Made by a program: the position numbers and the translations under genes. The notes beneath the pieces were generated by a model, which was not told where the DNA came from, did no database searches, and saw only the letters and a list, made by a program, of their open reading frames with translations. 43,807 nt of DNA from Butyrivibrio sp. Its GTDB lineage: Bacteria; Bacillota; Clostridia; Lachnospirales; Lachnospiraceae. Shown here piece by piece: positions 13,657 through 43,807 of this stretch (positions within the stretch are counted from its first letter, which is position 1; each line of letters starts with the position of its first letter). The DNA lies in NCBI GenBank assembly GCA_024697425.1, contig JAILFT010000047.1, positions 1 to 43,807 of the forward strand, in the 5' to 3' direction.

Positions 13657-16600
13657 ATGAAGAAAGTAAAAAGCATTACAAAAAGATTACTGGCACTAAT
13701 TCTATCGGCAATGCTGATAACCGGATCGCTTCCGGGAAAAGTTTATGCCGCTGAAGATGGTGCTCTGACAGGCGAAGAAGCTCTGATCTCCGTTGGTGAT
13801 GATGCGGAAGTTTCCGGAGAAGAAGCTTCTGTTTCTGAAGCTTCAGCTGAAGCAGCTTCCCAGGAAGTTATCCCGGGAGATCAGAATTCTGAAGAAGAGG
13901 ATAAGGCTGAATCAGGCTCCGGCAAGGAGGATGCAGAGGACTCTGAAGAAAAGAGTTCTGCTGAAGAAAAGAGCTCTGAAGATGAACAGAATCCAGAAGA
14001 AGCTTCTGAGTCCGGAGAGGCTCAGGCATCATTGGAGGAATCTGCTGCTGAAGAAGATTCTGCAGCTGAAGAAGATTCTGCAGCTGAGGCATCTTCCGAG
14101 GAAGAAAAGATTATAGAAGAGCAGGACGATAATGCACTTCTTGGAGATGGGTTAATAGGCTCTGATATAGATGACTTATGGGATGCAGGGCGACGCCAAA
14201 CTCACAGAAAGACAGGTAATACAAATAAGACGATTACAGGCCTTGGAACAGGAGCTATAACTGACCCTATATATCCTGAGACAAAGGATACTCCATGGCA
14301 GGGAAGCTATGTGTGGTATGGGTTTGAATGGGTAGACGAAGATAATATTCAGGAAGAAGTAAGATACAGGGTTCTGGATGCTAAAACAGATCGTTTCGGT
14401 GACGATACAATGCTTTTAGACTGCGATACAGTGTTAGGTAGAATCAACGATACTCATAAATTTCTTAAAGACACAGAAAATCCTTGTTACGCTACGTTTC
14501 CACTGCGTATAGCTCTGAATGACTTTAATAATAATTCTGAGTTTGATTTTTTACAGCAAGATGAAAGTTTTGCTCTTGCTCAGAGTACTATCGATACACA
14601 TAAGATCAGTGATAAGCTGCCTAATCTTGAAATTGACGGGACAAAGGCTTTTACTGATTACACTCCGCTTGATGGAGATGATGTTTTCATACTTGATTAT
14701 GAAGATATAGTCAACATGGAATATGGATATTTTACGCACATTGGTGCAAACCAGGAAAAGATAAACCAGCTTGACCATTGGCAAGGTTTTGATCAGCATG
14801 CATATCATTTAAGATCTTTTGCTAACAGCGACTATTTACAGGCTGATGGGCGTTACACTGCAGCAAATGGACAATTTTATAAGTATAGAGAAGTCGGCCC
14901 GGCTGTATATTTACAAGGCGCTTTTCAAAATGAAAGTAATACAGCTGGTATAAGCCCTGCATTTAACGTCGACAGGGGTAATATCGTTTTTTCATCACTT
15001 GTTTCAGGTACGGCAGGACAAGTCGGAGCAGAGTATAAACTGACACTTGTAACCCAGGATGGCTTTAGTTTATCTGCTTCTGATGTCATAAAGGATGGGA
15101 ATAGTTACAAAGTTCCTTTCTGGATCAATATCGGAGAGGACCAAGATGGCAATGATATAGGTCCCACACAGGTTTCTGTTGTGGTGACTGACGGAACATG
15201 GTCTTATGATGATGGCTGGAGCGATAATGCAAATCTTCTTCAGTACACATCAATAAACAATGATTCTTTTACAAAAACAGGAAGTGGTGAGGGAACATTT
15301 ACTCTCGACAGCAGCATAACAGGTGAGTGGGGAAAAGATTACCATGTATACATTTTAGCTGAGTGTATCAATGGCGAGAAAGAATCCGATCTTGCAAGTG
15401 AGCCCTATGAGATTTTTCCTCATGCTCATAGCATCAAGATTACAGCTAAAGACAATGAGCTTATAGCGACATGTACTGAGGCGGGATGTTATCTGCCTGA
15501 TAATAAGCTGTCAGTTAGGATAATTTCTCCTGAAGCTCAAACCTATGGATCAGAAGAATCATATGCTGCATTTCTTGATGGAGAAGATGTACAAAAATTC
15601 TTGGCTATTGTGTCAGCACATTTTAAGGATGATTTCACTATATATTATACAGGCAGGGGAGACACAACCTATGCCAAGAGCAATATTCCTCCCACAGGAG
15701 TAGGCTTGTATACAGCAAGCCTTACAATAGGCGGTGGGACGGCTTTTGTGAACTATGAGATTCAAAAGAAATATCTGAGAGTTAAAGCTGATGATAAGAG
15801 CATTTCTTACGGTGATGGTCCGCCTACAAATTACACTGCCAGCTACGATGGATTTGTAAATGGAGATAACAAATCTTCACTTGGAGGCACTCTTACTTTC
15901 GACTGCGATTACGAACGAGGAAATGATGCCGGTGAATATAATATTATTCTGAAGGGGCTGACATCTGACAATTACGAGATACAGTATATGTCAGGAAAGC
16001 TTACTGTTCAAAAAGTTGATGCTACAATAGGGTTACCAAGAGGATATACAAATGTTGCTTTCACCGGAAGAGCACAAGAACTTGCAGCTCCAGGTTCATC
16101 AGATCATGGACAATTATGGTATGCATTAACTGACGCAGGATCCTCAGCGCCTCAATTCGATAATGGCAGATACGGAATTTGGAGTACTGATGTACCTACA
16201 GCTGTAAATGCCGGAAGTTATAGAATATGGTACATGCTCATAGGAGATAAGAACCATAATGACTCCAAAGCTGAATATATAACAGCATCTATAGTAAAAA
16301 AGTCACTTCCGGAGGATGACTATGTTAAGATCATTAAGAGAAATTATCCTATTGGAGTATTCTCACCAGAAAAAATATATCTTTCGGAATATCTTCCGGC
16401 TGATTGCGGAGATGTAAACTATGGAAAATGTCAATATAGTAATCAGTCAATGTATGATAAAGGTATTACCCCAGATGTGTTAAATAGTGGCTTACTTAGT
16501 TATGTAGTAAGTCATTATGGTGATGAGTCCAGAACTGACACAATAACAGTAACTGCAACTGCTCAAAACTACGAAGATGCTTTCACAATTAGTATCATTG

Positions 16601-29255: not shown

Positions 29256-30641
29256 ATGGATGGATTTGTACGAGTTCCTGTCCGTGAACAGGAAGCAAAA
29301 GTAAGAGCCACAAACTTCAAGGAAGTTTGTCTTGGATACAACAAAGAAGAAGCAGAAAAAGAAGCTGCAAGATGCCTTAATTGCCCGAATCCCAAATGTG
29401 TTGCCGGATGTCCCGTTTCCATCGATATCCCCGGATTCATTCAGCAGGTTAAGGAAGGCAACGTTGAAGCCGCTTACCAGGTTATCAGCAAGTCCAGTGC
29501 ACTGCCTGCAGTATGTGGACGTGTTTGTCCTCAGGAGAGCCAGTGCGAAGGAAAGTGCGTAAGAGGAATCAAGGGAGATCCCGTTTCCATCGGTAAACTT
29601 GAGAGATATGTTGCAGATTCTGCAAGAGAACTTGGAATCAAGCCTGAAGGAGCCAAGGAGAAGAAGGGCAAGAAGGTTGCCGTAATAGGATCAGGTCCTT
29701 CCGGACTTACCTGCGCAGGAGACCTTGCAAAGATGGGCTATGATGTAACTATCTTTGAGGCACTTCATGAGGCAGGCGGCGTTCTGGTTTATGGTATCCC
29801 TGAGTTCCGTCTTCCCAAGGATGACGTTGTTAAGAAGGAAATTGAGAACGTTAAGGCTCTTGGCGTTAAGCTGGAGACTGACGTTGTAATAGGAAAGTCT
29901 GTTACCATTGATGAACTCATGGAGAAGGAGGGCTTCGAGGCCGTATTTATCGGATCCGGCGCAGGACTTCCCAGATTCATGAACATCCCCGGCGAGCAGG
30001 CTATGGGTGTATTCTCAGCTAATGAGTATCTCACAAGAAGCAACCTTATGAAGGCTTTTGACGAGAATTCAACAACACCTATCATGAAGGCTAAAAAGTG
30101 CGTAGTTGTCGGCGGCGGAAACGTTGCTATGGACGCTGCAAGAACAGCTCTTCGTCTTGGAGCTGAGGTTCACGTTGTTTACAGACGTGGTGAGGAAGAG
30201 CTTCCCGCACGTAAGGAAGAGGTTCATCACGCTAAGGAGGAGGGCATCATCTTTGACCTTCTCACTAACCCCGTAGAGATCCATGAGGATGAGAACGGCT
30301 GGGTAAAGAGCATCACATGTATCAGAATGGAACTTGGTGAGCCCGATGAGTCAGGCAGAAGAAGCCCTGTTGAGATCCCCGGATCTGAGTTCGAGATTGA
30401 GTGTGACGCTGTTATCATGTCACTGGGAACCTCACCCAATCCTCTTATTTCATCTACAACTAAGGGACTTGAGGTAAACAGAAGGAAATGTATCGTTGCT
30501 GAGGAAGCAAACGGACAGACTTCCAAACCCGGTGTATTTGCCGGTGGAGATGCCGTTACAGGTGCAGCTACAGTAATCCTTGCCATGGGTGCAGGAAGAG
30601 CTGCCGCTAAGGGTATTGACGAGTATCTCTCAAATAAATAA
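29256..30641 (+). CDS. nfnB: NADH-dependent ferredoxin:NADP+ oxidoreductase large subunit (GltD-type)
   Basis: NfnB carries the bifurcating FAD and two [4Fe-4S] clusters and binds NADPH. The ATG at 29256 with AGGAG upstream gives 461 residues. N-terminal cysteines CLNCPNPKCVAGCPVSIDIP and VCGRVCPQESQCEGKCVRG bind iron-sulfur clusters. The FAD motif is VIGSGPSGLTCAGDLAKMG, followed by YGIPEFRLPK and the NADPH motif VVGGGNVAMDAARTALRLG, and the protein closes with GVFAGGDAVTGAATVILAMG. Databases often label such proteins glutamate synthase small chain (gltA/gltD); pairing with nfnA and the absence of a large glutamate synthase gene argue for Nfn. The complex links reduced ferredoxin and NADH oxidation to NADPH formation in anaerobes. 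Confidence 0.93.
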   Translation: MDGFVRVPVREQEAKVRATNFKEVCLGYNKEEAEKEAARCLNCPNPKCVAGCPVSIDIPGFIQQVKEGNVEAAYQVISKSSALPAVCGRVCPQESQCEGKCVRGIKGDPVSIGKLERYVADSARELGIKPEGAKEKKGKKVAVIGSGPSGLTCAGDLAKMGYDVTIFEALHEAGGVLVYGIPEFRLPKDDVVKKEIENVKALGVKLETDVVIGKSVTIDELMEKEGFEAVFIGSGAGLPRFMNIPGEQAMGVFSANEYLTRSNLMKAFDENSTTPIMKAKKCVVVGGGNVAMDAARTALRLGAEVHVVYRRGEEELPARKEEVHHAKEEGIIFDLLTNPVEIHEDENGWVKSITCIRMELGEPDESGRRSPVEIPGSEFEIECDAVIMSLGTSPNPLISSTTKGLEVNRRKCIVAEEANGQTSKPGVFAGGDAVTGAATVILAMGAGRAAAKGIDEYLSNK

Positions 30642-38934: not shown

Positions 38935-39292
38935 GGCGAGGGTGAACTGGCGGCGCGGCATGGGAGATGACCTAATAGCTGTTTTTTGGTAGGGAAGTCA
39001 ATTTACTTATTTTGCTTTTGGAAATAATTCCAGTGTTTTGTTGAATATTTTTCCAAAATGAGCTCTTTTTCACCTTGAAGGATTAGAATTTGGAAAAAAG
39101 AGAAATCAATTTTCTCGTATTTTCCAAAAATCAGCTGTTTTTGGAAAAAACTGAATGATCAGGTTGCCAAGGCTGTGTCTATGATGATCGGGTTGCAAAA
39201 GGGTAAGTAGTGAGACGGCGAAGCCTGCATAGATAGAAACAAAGATAGAATTGAAATCATAACCAAACACAAATAGAAGCAGAGATACCAAC
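38935..39292. other. 358-nt AT-rich intergenic region with repeats and palindromes
   Basis: No protein-like frame is convincing; a 62-codon minus-strand frame here looks fortuitous. Two 25-nt near-identical direct repeats of the form TATTTTCCAAAA-T-AGCT-TTTTT lie at 39046-39070 and 39118-39142, and a shorter copy, AATAGCTGTTTTTTGG, at 38974-38989. TTTGGAAAA (39089-39097) and TTTTCCAAA (about 39120-39128) can close a hairpin with GAGAAA/TTTCTC inside. The region probably terminates the upstream operon and holds the promoter of the next gene, which I could not pick out. Confidence 0.6.
39046..39142. repeat. Pair of 25-nt direct repeats, TATTTTTCCAAAATGAGCTC type
   Basis: Copy one is 39046-39070 and copy two 39118-39142, spaced 72 nt apart. 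They differ at a few positions, and the central hexamers GAGCTC and CAGCTG are both palindromic. A truncated third copy lies at 38974-38989. The flanking complementary runs make the whole block self-complementary. Confidence 0.65.
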
Positions 39293-41068
39293 ATGATAAG
39301 AATTAGTCAGATCAAGATTCCTATTGAAATAAATAATAGACTCAAAGCACAATCAGAGGTGCCGGGAAAGTCCTCGTCTGATGATGCGCTGAAATCTGCC
39401 CTCAGAAAAAAGGCTGCAAAGATTCTCAGGATAGATGCAGGTAAAATCAGTCAGATTGAAATCGTTAAGCACTCTATCGATGCAAGAAAAAAGCCTGAGC
39501 TCTACGACGTTTATGTTGTTGATCTGAAAGTGCATGGCGAAAAGAATGTAGCCAAGAAGTGCCGGGATAGAAATGTGTCGGTGATTGAGGAAAAGAAATA
39601 TGATTTCCTTGAGAAAGTCAGCCGTCTAATAAATGTACCTTTGGATTGCGATGAACATGCTTCCGGCCGAATTGTCATAGTTGGAGCAGGCCCGGCAGGA
39701 CTGTTTTGCGGGTATGAGCTGGCAAAGCATGGATATAAGCCCATTATTATCGAGCGCGGCGCGGATGTAGACAAGAGAAGTGAGATTGTTGAGAAGTTCT
39801 GGGAGAGCGGAGAGCTTGATCTTAAGACCAATGTTCAGTTTGGAGAAGGCGGAGCCGGAACTTTTTCTGACGGCAAGCTCAACACCATGGTGAAGGACAA
39901 GGAAGGAAGAGGTGCTGAAGCCCTTAGGATCTTTGCAGAGAACGGAGCACCGGAGCGCATTAAGTACGAGTCCAAGCCCCACATCGGAACCGACATTCTC
40001 AAAAATGTAGTAAAGAATATCAGAAACGAGATAATAGCCTGTGGCGGACAGGTTCTTTTTGAGACTCAGCTGACAGAGCTTATCACAGATGCAGATGGAA
40101 GGCTCACCGCTATTAAAGTCAGTGGTGTTGCAAAAAAAGATGCTTCAGCCCCTGATATTGAATCAACCATAAAGTGCGACGCCGTTGTCCTTGCCATAGG
40201 CCACAGCGCCCGTGATACCTTTGTTATGCTCAAGGAAAAAAGCGTTGACATGCAGCCCAAGCCTTTTGCTGTGGGTTTTAGAGTTGAGCATCCCCAGGGC
40301 CTTATAAATCTGTCTCAGTACGGCATCGATGCTCCGGATATTCTTCCGGCTGCGCCCTACAAGCTTACGACTACCACAAAGGAGGGAAAGGGAGTCTATT
40401 CCTTCTGCATGTGCCCCGGAGGATATGTGGTTAATGCTTCTTCCGAGGAGGGAAGGCTTTGCGTCAATGGTATGAGCTACAGCAAAAGAGACGGCAATAA
40501 CGCCAACTCCGCCATCATAATAACCGTTGATCCCAAGGACTTTGGCTCCGAGGATGTCCTTGCCGGAGTGGAGTTCCAGAGAAATCTTGAAAAAAGAGCC
40601 TTTGACCTGGCGGGAGGTAAGATTCCCGTTGAGTACTATGGAGGCTTCAAGCGGGCTGTAAATTCGGCTAATACAGATGAACAGAAAAATCATACATCTG
40701 TTGGCGCAACCCAAGACAATACATGCAGTATAGACCCGGAAACCTTCACCCCTCAGATGAAGGGTGCCTATGAGTTTGCTGCTGTTCACACCATACTTCC
40801 CAAAGACCTGAACGAAGCCTTTGTTGAAGGAATGGAGAATTTCGGTCGTACGATAAAAGGCTATAATGATGCCCATGCCCTTGTCTCCGGCGTTGAGAGC
40901 AGGACTTCCTCACCGGTAAGGATAAACAGAGGTGATGACGGGCAGTCCCTTAATATAAAAGGTCTTTTCCCTTGTGGAGAAGGCGCAGGATATGCAGGCG
41001 GCATTATGTCCGCAGCAATGGACGGCATCCGCACCGCGGAGCTGGTGGCTGCGCAAATATTATTATAA
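39293..41068 (+). CDS. COG2509-type FAD-dependent dehydrogenase
   Basis: 591 residues. The N-terminal 110 residues form the small ferredoxin-like domain of this family (IRISQIKIPI, LRIDAGKISQIEIVKHSIDA), followed by the FAD motif IVIVGAGPAGLFCGYELAKH at about 127-146, QFGEGGAGTFSDGKLNT, SKPHIGTDIL, AVGFRVEHPQGLINLSQYG, and the C-terminal GLFPCGEGAGYAGGIMSAAM. Members are widespread in Firmicutes; their substrate is unknown. The ATG at 39293 has only a weak ribosome site (GCAGAGA), and no other start fits better. It stands apart from the upstream operon, separated by the AT-rich region. Confidence 0.9.
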   Translation: MIRISQIKIPIEINNRLKAQSEVPGKSSSDDALKSALRKKAAKILRIDAGKISQIEIVKHSIDARKKPELYDVYVVDLKVHGEKNVAKKCRDRNVSVIEEKKYDFLEKVSRLINVPLDCDEHASGRIVIVGAGPAGLFCGYELAKHGYKPIIIERGADVDKRSEIVEKFWESGELDLKTNVQFGEGGAGTFSDGKLNTMVKDKEGRGAEALRIFAENGAPERIKYESKPHIGTDILKNVVKNIRNEIIACGGQVLFETQLTELITDADGRLTAIKVSGVAKKDASAPDIESTIKCDAVVLAIGHSARDTFVMLKEKSVDMQPKPFAVGFRVEHPQGLINLSQYGIDAPDILPAAPYKLTTTTKEGKGVYSFCMCPGGYVVNASSEEGRLCVNGMSYSKRDGNNANSAIIITVDPKDFGSEDVLAGVEFQRNLEKRAFDLAGGKIPVEYYGGFKRAVNSANTDEQKNHTSVGATQDNTCSIDPETFTPQMKGAYEFAAVHTILPKDLNEAFVEGMENFGRTIKGYNDAHALVSGVESRTSSPVRINRGDDGQSLNIKGLFPCGEGAGYAGGIMSAAMDGIRTAELVAAQILL

Positions 41069-41174
41069 ATGACGATGTGGCATAACTGCTCATTCGAAGC
41101 TATCAAAGACAGAAAGCTCAATGCAGCGAAGCTATGCACTTCCGGCCCATGATCAAACAAAAGGAGTCCCAATA

Positions 41175-41474
41175 ATGTCTACACAGGACGCAGTAAAAGA
41201 AAAATCGAAAAGCAAGATCAAGGAACCCAGGCAGTACAACGTTGTCATGCACAACGATGACTTTACCACCATGGAATTTGTGGTGGAGGTTCTGGTGGAT
41301 ATTTTTCATAAGGATGAAGTAACAGCCCAGGCCATAATGCTGAACGTTCACAAGAAGGGCAAGGCAGTTGTGGGAAAATATCCCTACGACATCGCCAGCA
41401 CCAAGGTGAATGCGGCTCTTTCAAGGGCCAAAAGCCAGGGATACCCATTTCGAATGACGGTTGAGGAGGCGTGA
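41175..41474 (+). CDS. clpS: ATP-dependent Clp protease adaptor ClpS
   Basis: ClpS delivers N-degron substrates to ClpA-ClpP. The ATG at 41175 with AAAAGGAG upstream gives 99 residues. The hydrophobic-pocket residues are present in HNDDFTTMEFVVEVLVDIFH, and the conserved His and basic loop in NVHKKGKAVVGKYPYDIA. The C-terminus is RMTVEEA. clpA follows after 144 nt. The last 21 nt of the gene are the first copy of a 32-bp tandem repeat that continues into the intergenic space and repeats the MTVEEA-stop coding three more times. Confidence 0.95.
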   Translation: MSTQDAVKEKSKSKIKEPRQYNVVMHNDDFTTMEFVVEVLVDIFHKDEVTAQAIMLNVHKKGKAVVGKYPYDIASTKVNAALSRAKSQGYPFRMTVEEA

Positions 41475-41581
41475 AACAAAGCCAAATGACCGTAGAAGAG
41501 GCCTGACACAGAGCCAAATGACGGTGGAGAAGGCGTGAAACAAAGCCACATTACTGTTGAAGAGGTTTAAGACAGCGCCCC
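41454..41581 (+). repeat. Four 32-bp tandem copies of the clpS 3' end
   Basis: Copies at 41454-41485, 41486-41517, 41518-41549 and 41550-41581. Copy one encodes MTVEEA-stop of clpS. The others encode MTVEEA-stop, MTVEKA-stop and ITVEEV-stop, each in its own frame because 32 is not a multiple of three. Differences among copies one to three fall mostly at third codon positions. Copies are contiguous with no spacers. Confidence 0.95.
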
Positions 41582-41618
41582 CACTGAATGCCATATAGAC
41601 TATCCGGGAGATCACAAC

Positions 41619-43807
41619 ATGAAGCTTTCAGAGAATACCGCGCAGATTCTGCAGGAAACTGTGGAATATGCCCGTGAGAATAATTACGAATATGTTACGC
41701 CTGAGATGCTGCTTCTTTTCATAATGCAGGATGAGACCTTTGCGGAGGCTTTCTATTACTGCGGCGGAGATGGCACCATTCTGGCTTCGCAGCTGAACGC
41801 CTATATCTCTGACTATATCGAGAAGACTCAGGGAAAAGAGCCGGAGCTTTCAGCGGGGCTTAATTTTGTGCTGGCCTTTGCGGGGCAAAGTGCCTACAGC
41901 AGCGGCAACGAGGAGATAAATGTAAGGCATCTTGTTCATGCCATCTGGAATCTGGATGAGAGCTATGCCAAGTACTATCTGGAACAGCAGCTTTCTGAGG
42001 CAGATCTTTTACAGGAGATGGCCAATATAGAAGATGCCGCAGGCGAGGAGGACGGATACGAAATGCCCTTTGGCAATGAGGAAATGTCTGATGGTGAGGG
42101 CGGACATCCCTCAGGTCACAGAAATCAGGAAGACAACTGGAAGCTTTATGCACCGTGCCTCAATGATACGCTGAAGGATGTAAATCCTCTGATAGGAAGG
42201 CAGGCAGAACTGGAGCGGACAATTCAGATCCTCTGCAGGAAGGACAAGAACAATCCCCTTCATATCGGAGAACCCGGTGTTGGCAAAACTGCCATTACCT
42301 ACGGCCTTGTTGAGCTTCTTAAGAAGGACGAGGTTCCGGACGCCATTAAGGGAGCTAAGGTATTTGCCCTCGACCTTGGCGGTATGCTGGCGGGAACCCA
42401 GTACAGAGGCGACTTTGAAAAGAGATTTAAGAAGGTGCTTTCCGAGATCGGCAAAGAGGAAAGGCCCATCATTTACATTGACGAGATCCACAATTTATCA
42501 GGAGCAGGAGCGGTTGGTGAAGGCTCTTTTGACGCATCAAATATGTTAAAGCCCTATCTGTCTGACGGGCACATCAGGTTCATAGGTGCTACCACCTTCG
42601 AGGAGTACAAAAAATACTTCGAGAAAAACAAGAGCCTCATAAGGCGCTTCCAGAACGTGGAGATCAAGGAGCCCACTGAGGAGGAGAGCGTTAAGATCCT
42701 TGAGGGCCTGAAGGAAAAGTACGAGACCTATCACGGTGTCAGATATGATAAGGACGTTCTGGAATACGCTGTTAAGATGAGCAGCAAGTACATCAATGAG
42801 AGGTTCCTCCCGGATAAGGCCATCGACATCATCGATGAAGCCGGCTCCTACAGAAAGCTCCATCTGCTTGAGGGCAGCAACCAGACCGTTGGCAAGGATG
42901 TTATTAACGAGATCCTCACCAAGATCTGTCGTGTGCCCATCGAGACTGTTGAGACAGACGACATGGCCGGTCTGGCTACTTTGGAGGAACGTCTTAAGAA
43001 GCTTATCTTCGGACAGGACGAGGCGGTAAGCCAGGTGGTTAACGCCGTGAAATTCTCTAAGGCAGGACTTATCGAGGATGGCAAGCCTTTAGCAAGCCTT
43101 CTTTTCGTGGGCCCCACAGGTGTTGGCAAGACCGAGATAGCAAGGTGCCTGGCAAAAGAGCTGGGATCAAAGCTTATACGTTTTGATATGAGTGAGTACG
43201 GAGAAAAACACGCAGTGGCCAAGCTCATCGGCTCTCCCGCAGGATACGTGGGATATGAGGAGGGCGGCATACTGACTGAGGCCATAAGAAAGAGCCCGTC
43301 CTCTGTGCTTCTTCTTGATGAGATAGAAAAAGCTCATCCCGACATATTTAATGTGCTTTTGCAGGTAATGGATTATGCTACGCTGACCGATAACCAGGGC
43401 AGAAAGGCGGATTTCAGGAACGTGATCGTGATCATGACTTCCAACGCCGGCGCCAATAAGCTGGGAAAGAGCGGCATAGGTTTTGTAAGCGAGAAGCAGG
43501 ACAACGGAGCTCTTATGGATGCTGTAAAGCAGACCTTCCAGCCTGAGTTCAGGAACCGTCTTACCAAGATTGTTGCCTTTAACAGCATGGATGAGGAAAT
43601 GGCAAGGCTTGTAGTTGACAAGAAGCTTTCCGAGATGGCACTGCAGCTTGAGGCCAGGAACATTATCGTTAAGGCAGATAAGAAGGCAAAAGAGCTGGTG
43701 AAGGTAAGAGGTATCAGTCAGGAATTCGGTGCCAGAGAAGTGGACCGCGTAATCAGAAATGATATTAAGCCTTTGTTTGTGGATGATATTCTCTTTGGCA
43801 GTCTTAA
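41619..43807 (+). CDS. clpA: ATP-dependent Clp protease ATP-binding subunit ClpA (3' end outside window)
   Basis: ClpA is the hexameric AAA+ unfoldase that feeds substrates into ClpP. 729 codons are visible before the right edge. The N-domain (1-145, KLSENTAQILQETVEYAREN, YVTPEMLLLFIM) binds ClpS. An acidic linker follows at about 145-180. The first AAA domain has Walker A GEPGVGKT near 215-222 and IIYIDEIHNL; the second has GPTGVGKT near 498-505 and LLLDEIEKAHPDIFNVLLQV. The ClpP-docking loop contains I620-G621-F622. The start is ATG 41619 with a weak CGGGAG site. Adjacent clpS and the lack of a ClpC/ClpB middle domain support ClpA. Only the last few dozen residues are missing. Confidence 0.94.
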   Translation, partial: MKLSENTAQILQETVEYARENNYEYVTPEMLLLFIMQDETFAEAFYYCGGDGTILASQLNAYISDYIEKTQGKEPELSAGLNFVLAFAGQSAYSSGNEEINVRHLVHAIWNLDESYAKYYLEQQLSEADLLQEMANIEDAAGEEDGYEMPFGNEEMSDGEGGHPSGHRNQEDNWKLYAPCLNDTLKDVNPLIGRQAELERTIQILCRKDKNNPLHIGEPGVGKTAITYGLVELLKKDEVPDAIKGAKVFALDLGGMLAGTQYRGDFEKRFKKVLSEIGKEERPIIYIDEIHNLSGAGAVGEGSFDASNMLKPYLSDGHIRFIGATTFEEYKKYFEKNKSLIRRFQNVEIKEPTEEESVKILEGLKEKYETYHGVRYDKDVLEYAVKMSSKYINERFLPDKAIDIIDEAGSYRKLHLLEGSNQTVGKDVINEILTKICRVPIETVETDDMAGLATLEERLKKLIFGQDEAVSQVVNAVKFSKAGLIEDGKPLASLLFVGPTGVGKTEIARCLAKELGSKLIRFDMSEYGEKHAVAKLIGSPAGYVGYEEGGILTEAIRKSPSSVLLLDEIEKAHPDIFNVLLQVMDYATLTDNQGRKADFRNVIVIMTSNAGANKLGKSGIGFVSEKQDNGALMDAVKQTFQPEFRNRLTKIVAFNSMDEEMARLVVDKKLSEMALQLEARNIIVKADKKAKELVKVRGISQEFGAREVDRVIRNDIKPLFVDDILFGSL

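Follow-up and report, generated by a model that had tools for sequence, protein, structure and literature searches.

Tandem copies of the clpS 3' end in front of clpA in a Butyrivibrio genome, possibly relics of former gene ends

The closest described counterparts of the locus reported here are termination-reinitiation coupling between neighbouring genes, minisatellites in intergenic DNA, and mosaics left by homologous recombination between related species. For coupling, the distance between the genes matters: the available part of PMC10666635 describes tests in E. coli and Haloferax in which coupling was much reduced at 13-14 nt and nearly or wholly lost at 20-38 nt, and one study without loss of coupling up to +25 nt is cited in the available part of the review PMC12548453. 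Among the matches listed in a literature search, judged by title or by the start of the abstract, none dealt with copies of gene tails between clpS and clpA.

The junction lies in a stretch of 43,807 nt (contig JAILFT010000047.1 of the Butyrivibrio sp. assembly GCA_024697425.1), the whole of which is called the window below; the assembly comprises 3.03 Mb in 232 contigs, with 84.5% completeness and 6.6% contamination. On the plus strand, clpS (41175-41474) encodes a ClpS adaptor of 99 aa plus stop, which matches Pfam ClpS (PF02617, 1.8e-32) over residues 16-95 of 99 and is aligned by phmmer through the last residue of solved ClpS chains, e.g. 1mbu_C and 3o2b_A. The gene was found in 34 of the 79 genus genomes (counting that of the window), and the nearest named records by clpS (99 residues) are Butyrivibrio sp. 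SIG346 (98%) and FCS014 (97%). Downstream on the same strand, clpA (41619-43805; Pfam Clp_N, AAA, AAA_lid_9, AAA_2 and ClpB_D2-small) runs off the contig end. The gap of 144 nt between the two genes differs from the short gap or overlap of a translationally coupled pair, and clpA has a Shine-Dalgarno sequence (SD) of its own, CCGGGAG (41604-41610, plus strand), located 8 nt before its ATG, with a duplex energy of -7.4 kcal/mol against an anti-SD that I take to be the 16S end. The fold of the RNA from 41440 to 41630 does not stand out (z = -0.86, with 37 of 200 shuffles folding as well), and a search of 40800-42000 against Rfam gave one sub-threshold lncRNA match on the opposite strand, inside clpA (13.7 bits, for a gathering score of 50).

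Within this gap the end of clpS is repeated. Four contiguous 32-bp units without indels occupy 41454-41581 on the plus strand, each corresponding to the last 21 nt of clpS followed by an 11-nt spacer, and the first of them is the end of clpS itself. Unit 1 (41454-41485) holds the live tail MTVEEA, unit 2 (41486-41517) reads MTVEEA in frame +2 relative to clpS, unit 3 (41518-41549) MTVEKA in frame +1, and unit 4 (41550-41581) ITVEEV, again in frame 0, all of them closed by a stop codon. Unit 2 differs from unit 1 at four third positions and two spacer positions, whereas unit 4, the farthest from the live clpS end, is the most decayed copy, with its ATG lost and its stop changed to TAA. A purine run, GARRAGG, is kept in all four units. 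Tandem Repeats Finder reports 41453-41565 with a period of 32 and a score of 142, which tops the 20 rows reported for the window; other tandem repeats, with lower scores, are found at 13941-14087 and 30193-30249 (periods of 18 and 21 bp, respectively). The best 96-base self-match for periods from 10 to 60 is 70/96 at period 32, whereas 60 simulations of the window under an order-2 Markov model reached at most 49, and by both approaches the units are head-to-tail copies above chance. The four units, their frames and their translations are as described in the initial annotation of this DNA, which had also raised the concern of an assembly artefact. As the longest exact repeat within the array measures 18 bp, collapse or creation of the array by short-read assembly is unlikely, and the array is genuine. 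That the units arose by in-frame duplication followed by the loss of one base each, an option put forward at the same time, finds no support, with the spacer measuring 11 nt in all four units. No second copy of the array was present elsewhere in the genome among the matches listed, the best other match having E = 2.2, and a search of the genome for the tail pattern with three mismatches gave 12 forward hits, including the four of the array, and 12 reverse hits, the reversed control giving 8 and 11, respectively. One weak match (E = 1.7e-4), a stretch of 41 bases that is 83% similar to the end of unit 1 plus unit 2, lies at G073:C52:5243-5283, on a contig different from the one that carries clpS in G073.

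Counted as minimum changes per column across the four units, codon positions 1, 2 and 3 show 1, 2 and 8 changes, and the 11 spacer columns show 6. Third positions hold 8 of the 11 codon changes (P for at least 8 of 11 given 1/3 = 0.009), 5 of 6 if units 1-3 are taken alone (p = 0.018), and 7 of 9 outside the purine run (p = 0.013). The third-position excess pointed out in the initial annotation is present and suggestive, yet modest: it was tested after being noticed and rests on 11 changes, and relative to the spacer neither the faster change of third positions (p = 0.18) nor the slower change of first and second positions together (p = 0.19) is significant. Comparing tail copies with live tails gives third-position shares of 4/6 for the second copy in FCS014 (p = 0.10) and 3/5 for a TLEEA copy in SIG345 (p = 0.21), and the pool of these two with the window amounts to 15/22 (p = 0.0009).

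A tentative explanation, which I rank second, would be that a 32-bp segment happening to start in clpS was amplified by replication slippage and drifted neutrally, with the codon bias arising by chance. The exact period, the similar 11-nt spacer and the lack of indels agree with this, as do the post hoc nature of the p value of 0.009 and the lack of a significant difference in pace between third positions and spacer; against it, tail copies recur with different spacing in FCS014, SIG345 and a more distant relative, and the junction is a boundary of divergence, as described below. The initial annotation had instead suggested selection on the coding capacity of the copies, for example as back-up C-termini for frameshifted ClpS. 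The first three copies do occupy all three frames, but frame +1 stops at 41455 and frame +2 at 41462, inside unit 1 and before units 2 and 3, which could be reached only by shifts within the last few clpS codons. These stops contradict the back-up proposal, and I regard it as practically excluded.

I surveyed 67 of 80 fetched clpS loci (L061-L126 and L137, leaving aside L127-L136 and L138-L140), of which 64 have a recognisable clpA downstream (L087, L098 and L112 were dropped). In 58 of these 64 junctions the spacing from the stop of clpS to the start of clpA is -1 to +3 nt, and the SD starts inside the clpS tail: it is AGGAGG in 42 cases, of which 36 have it at a distance of 6-7 nt from the start, and GGAGG or GAGG in the remaining 16. 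The tail codons of the relatives are typically GTN GAG GAG GCN (V-E-E-A), and these codons likely serve as the ribosome site of clpA as well, which accounts for the recurrence of GAGGAGG in the array and for the tail being the piece that is copied. The connection with SDs in front of clpA that the initial annotation had proposed accordingly holds for the relatives, but not in its further form, in which the units are serial SD-like standby sites that keep ribosomes near clpA in the window. The purine run present in every unit is in line with such sites, and so is the anti-SD pairing of unit 4, at -7.0 kcal/mol nearly equal to the -7.4 kcal/mol of the site that clpA has to itself. However, the pairing drops from -11.5 kcal/mol in unit 1 to -5.8, -6.4 and -7.0 kcal/mol in units 2, 3 and 4, about 53 nt separate the nearest purine run from the clpA start, and selection on SDs leaves the third-position bias outside the purine run unexplained. 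I therefore consider serial working sites very unlikely.

Long junctions are found in SIG346 (95 nt), FCS014 (90 nt), SIG345 (84 nt) and the loci L093 (92 nt), L119 (67 nt) and L125 (43 nt), and the window is a seventh case. The close spacing is gone in the window, SIG346 and FCS014 alike, with gaps of 90-144 nt and CCGGGAG in front of clpA in all three. Downstream matches to the clpS tail exceed those in base shuffles in FCS014 (18/21; 0 of 500 shuffles), L093 (16/21; 0 of 500) and SIG345 (15/21; 4 of 500), and are no better than shuffles in SIG346 (277 of 500), L119 (392 of 500) and L125 (430 of 500). The second tail of FCS014 lies 20 nt on and is the one extra intact tail there; its 12 codons read GLPFHMTVEEA plus stop and are followed by GAAAGAGCCAA, like the spacers of the window. 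The word "quiver" in the name of the FCS014 contig presumably refers to the PacBio polishing program, and this second tail probably rests on long reads. SIG346 is without a second intact tail, and GTTTAAGAAGAAGCCCCCAC in its junction resembles, by eye, the end of unit 4, GTTTAAGACAGCGCCCCCAC; the 3' part of unit 4 resembles both the second copy of FCS014 and this SIG346 remnant, likewise by eye. The copy number is thus two in FCS014 and one in SIG346, plus the remnant recognised by eye. In SIG345, where ClpS ends in MTVEEA, the shuffle-tested match is a GAAGCCTGA piece directly after the clpS stop, and a TLEEA tail of the old type touches the clpA ATG (13/18, matched by eye and without a shuffle test). 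Several GAAGCCTGA-like pieces along this junction (L070, 1764-1885) form, together with the TLEEA tail, a second and different set of tail copies. The junction of L093 (MAG S2A_St_11; 1764-1900) contains an insert of about 77 nt bordered on either side by AGGAGGAACACTAATG, and the second of these copies holds the SD and the start of clpA; small inverted repeats can be seen by eye in the insert. Two intact tails at a distance of 4-34 nt were found in 2 of the 79 genus genomes, those of the window and FCS014, and in the window's genome only among 397 genomes drawn from the family and 392 drawn from the order (the two draws partly overlap), by a pattern that requires intact tails and would miss arrays of the SIG345 and L093 type.

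The junction also marks a change in relatedness. Comparison of the window with FCS014 gives 32 third-position differences in 99 clpS codons versus 80 in 729 clpA codons (Fisher p = 1.6e-7), whereas there is no such break between the window and SIG346 (33/99 and 260/729) or between SIG346 and FCS014 (33/99 and 249/729); 4-fold sites in clpS differ by 36-46% within this group. In 100-base bins, the identity of the window to FCS014 ranges from 56 to 94% over 39400-41400, and from 84 to 100% from bin 41600 onwards, where the clpA SD is located, and is at least 92% in 20 of these 22 bins. The identity of the window to SIG346 reaches 96-98% in four of the five bins from 40600 to 41000, for a background of 87%. 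Over the 16.9 kb upstream, the window is 92% identical to FCS014 versus 87% to SIG346. Because both the bin identities and the contrast between clpS and clpA change there, a recombination boundary lies within or adjoining the array, with divergence differing significantly on its two sides. A chimeric contig in the fragmented assembly of the window, with its 6.6% contamination, could mimic part of the mosaic. In trees of clpS and of the N-terminal part of clpA (36 rows each), the window, SIG346 and FCS014 form one clade (SH-aLRT 98 and 100, respectively); the order within this clade is not resolved in either tree, and SIG345 shows no incongruence between them. Further upstream, the intergenic stretch 38937-39290, which precedes the gene for an FAD-dependent protein, has no BLAST match in the stretches fetched from FCS014 or SIG346; the DNA preceding 38937 matches these at 92% and 87%, respectively, and the tract of low identity begins at 38937-39290. 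The intergenic stretch in front of clpS (41069-41171, plus strand), which is part of the mosaic, is 95% identical to SIG346 and without a match in FCS014, yet the adjoining clpS and that of SIG346 have different bases at 33 of 99 third positions.

The explanation that I prefer, with a probability of roughly 60%, is that units 2-4 are former clpS C-termini, which diverged as coding sequence in other alleles and were left at the junction by tail duplication and allelic exchange. As long as an SD-bearing clpS tail touches the start of clpA, an insertion or duplication at the junction would survive best if it kept one tail for each gene, one ending ClpS and the other starting ClpA. The clade that comprises the window, SIG346 and FCS014 would subsequently have seen its junction opened and an SD of its own gained by clpA, leaving the old tail free to decay. 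Allelic exchange bounded at the tail, together with unequal exchange or slippage of 32-bp units, could then have produced the array of four. The second tail may be ancestral to the clade, with further copies added in the lineage of the window. Copies that had diverged while coding for C-termini would keep a pattern biased to third positions without being translated at present, and a present function of the extra copies seems unlikely. The coding-like divergence calls for no selection on the coding of units 2 and 3: copies that separated as C-termini of different alleles should show it, and a recombination boundary lies at the junction. Some observations weigh against former C-termini: the regular 32-bp spacing and similar 11-nt spacer fit simple tandem amplification better than repeated replacement of alleles, and the matches listed from the 78 other genus genomes, for which the best candidates, up to eight per genome, were scored, include no close donor of unit 2 or unit 3. 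Moreover, copies dating back to the origin of the clade would be expected, under free decay, to have lost more of their first and second positions than units 2 and 3 have, unless exchange between units refreshed them.

Alternatively, the copies could still be translated. Ribosomes that end clpS might restart at the ATG of unit 2 and again at that of unit 3, and so be passed on towards clpA. The hops from stop to ATG are 11 nt between units 1 and 2 and between units 2 and 3, the reading MTVEEA or MTVEKA is retained, and coupling can be obtained with just 15 nt from the end of an upstream gene according to the available part of PMC10666635. However, the last hop to clpA would span 80 nt from the stop of unit 3, or 48 nt from that of unit 4, which is without an ATG, and so would exceed the 20-38 nt at which coupling was nearly or wholly lost in E. 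coli and Haloferax. In addition, both SIG346, where no extra intact tail is found, and FCS014, with a single one, nonetheless carry the same clpA SD. Such a relay of ribosomes appears improbable. A little less credible still is that units 2 and 3 are six-codon reading frames translated as a selected reinitiation chain, gene tails having turned into regulatory mini-ORFs after the spacing was lost; conservation across species is not seen for them, as two intact tails occur in 2 of 79 genus genomes.

If units 2-4 are indeed former C-termini, the array is a local scar, informative about evolution, at a junction where most of the relatives surveyed have closely spaced genes. Where a gene end doubles as the ribosome site of the next gene, extra gene ends would tend to be left behind when the junction changes, and, having diverged elsewhere as coding sequence, they can look as though selection acted on their coding, which is a trap of a general kind. 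The relatives also offer a natural series for the loss of coupling between clpS and clpA, from abutting genes, through an expanded junction with the tail retained, to an expanded junction with a new SD.

Compared with the described systems, most of the relatives share the geometry of overlapping and abutting pairs with termination-reinitiation coupling, as given in the available parts of PMC10666635 and PMC12548453 (PMC6728339 is a further listed paper on such pairs), with clpA at -1 to +3 nt and an SD located within clpS. A gap of 90-144 nt and an independent SD set the clade of the window apart, and the likeness of the relatives is one of geometry. The array resembles an intergenic minisatellite in its head-to-tail 32-bp units with drift between them, but its first unit is still in use as the 3' end of a gene, and in related junctions the tail copies are spaced differently. 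With the mosaics formed by homologous recombination between related species it shares a sharp change in identity and different nearest relatives on the two sides, whereas in this locus the boundary coincides with repeated gene ends.
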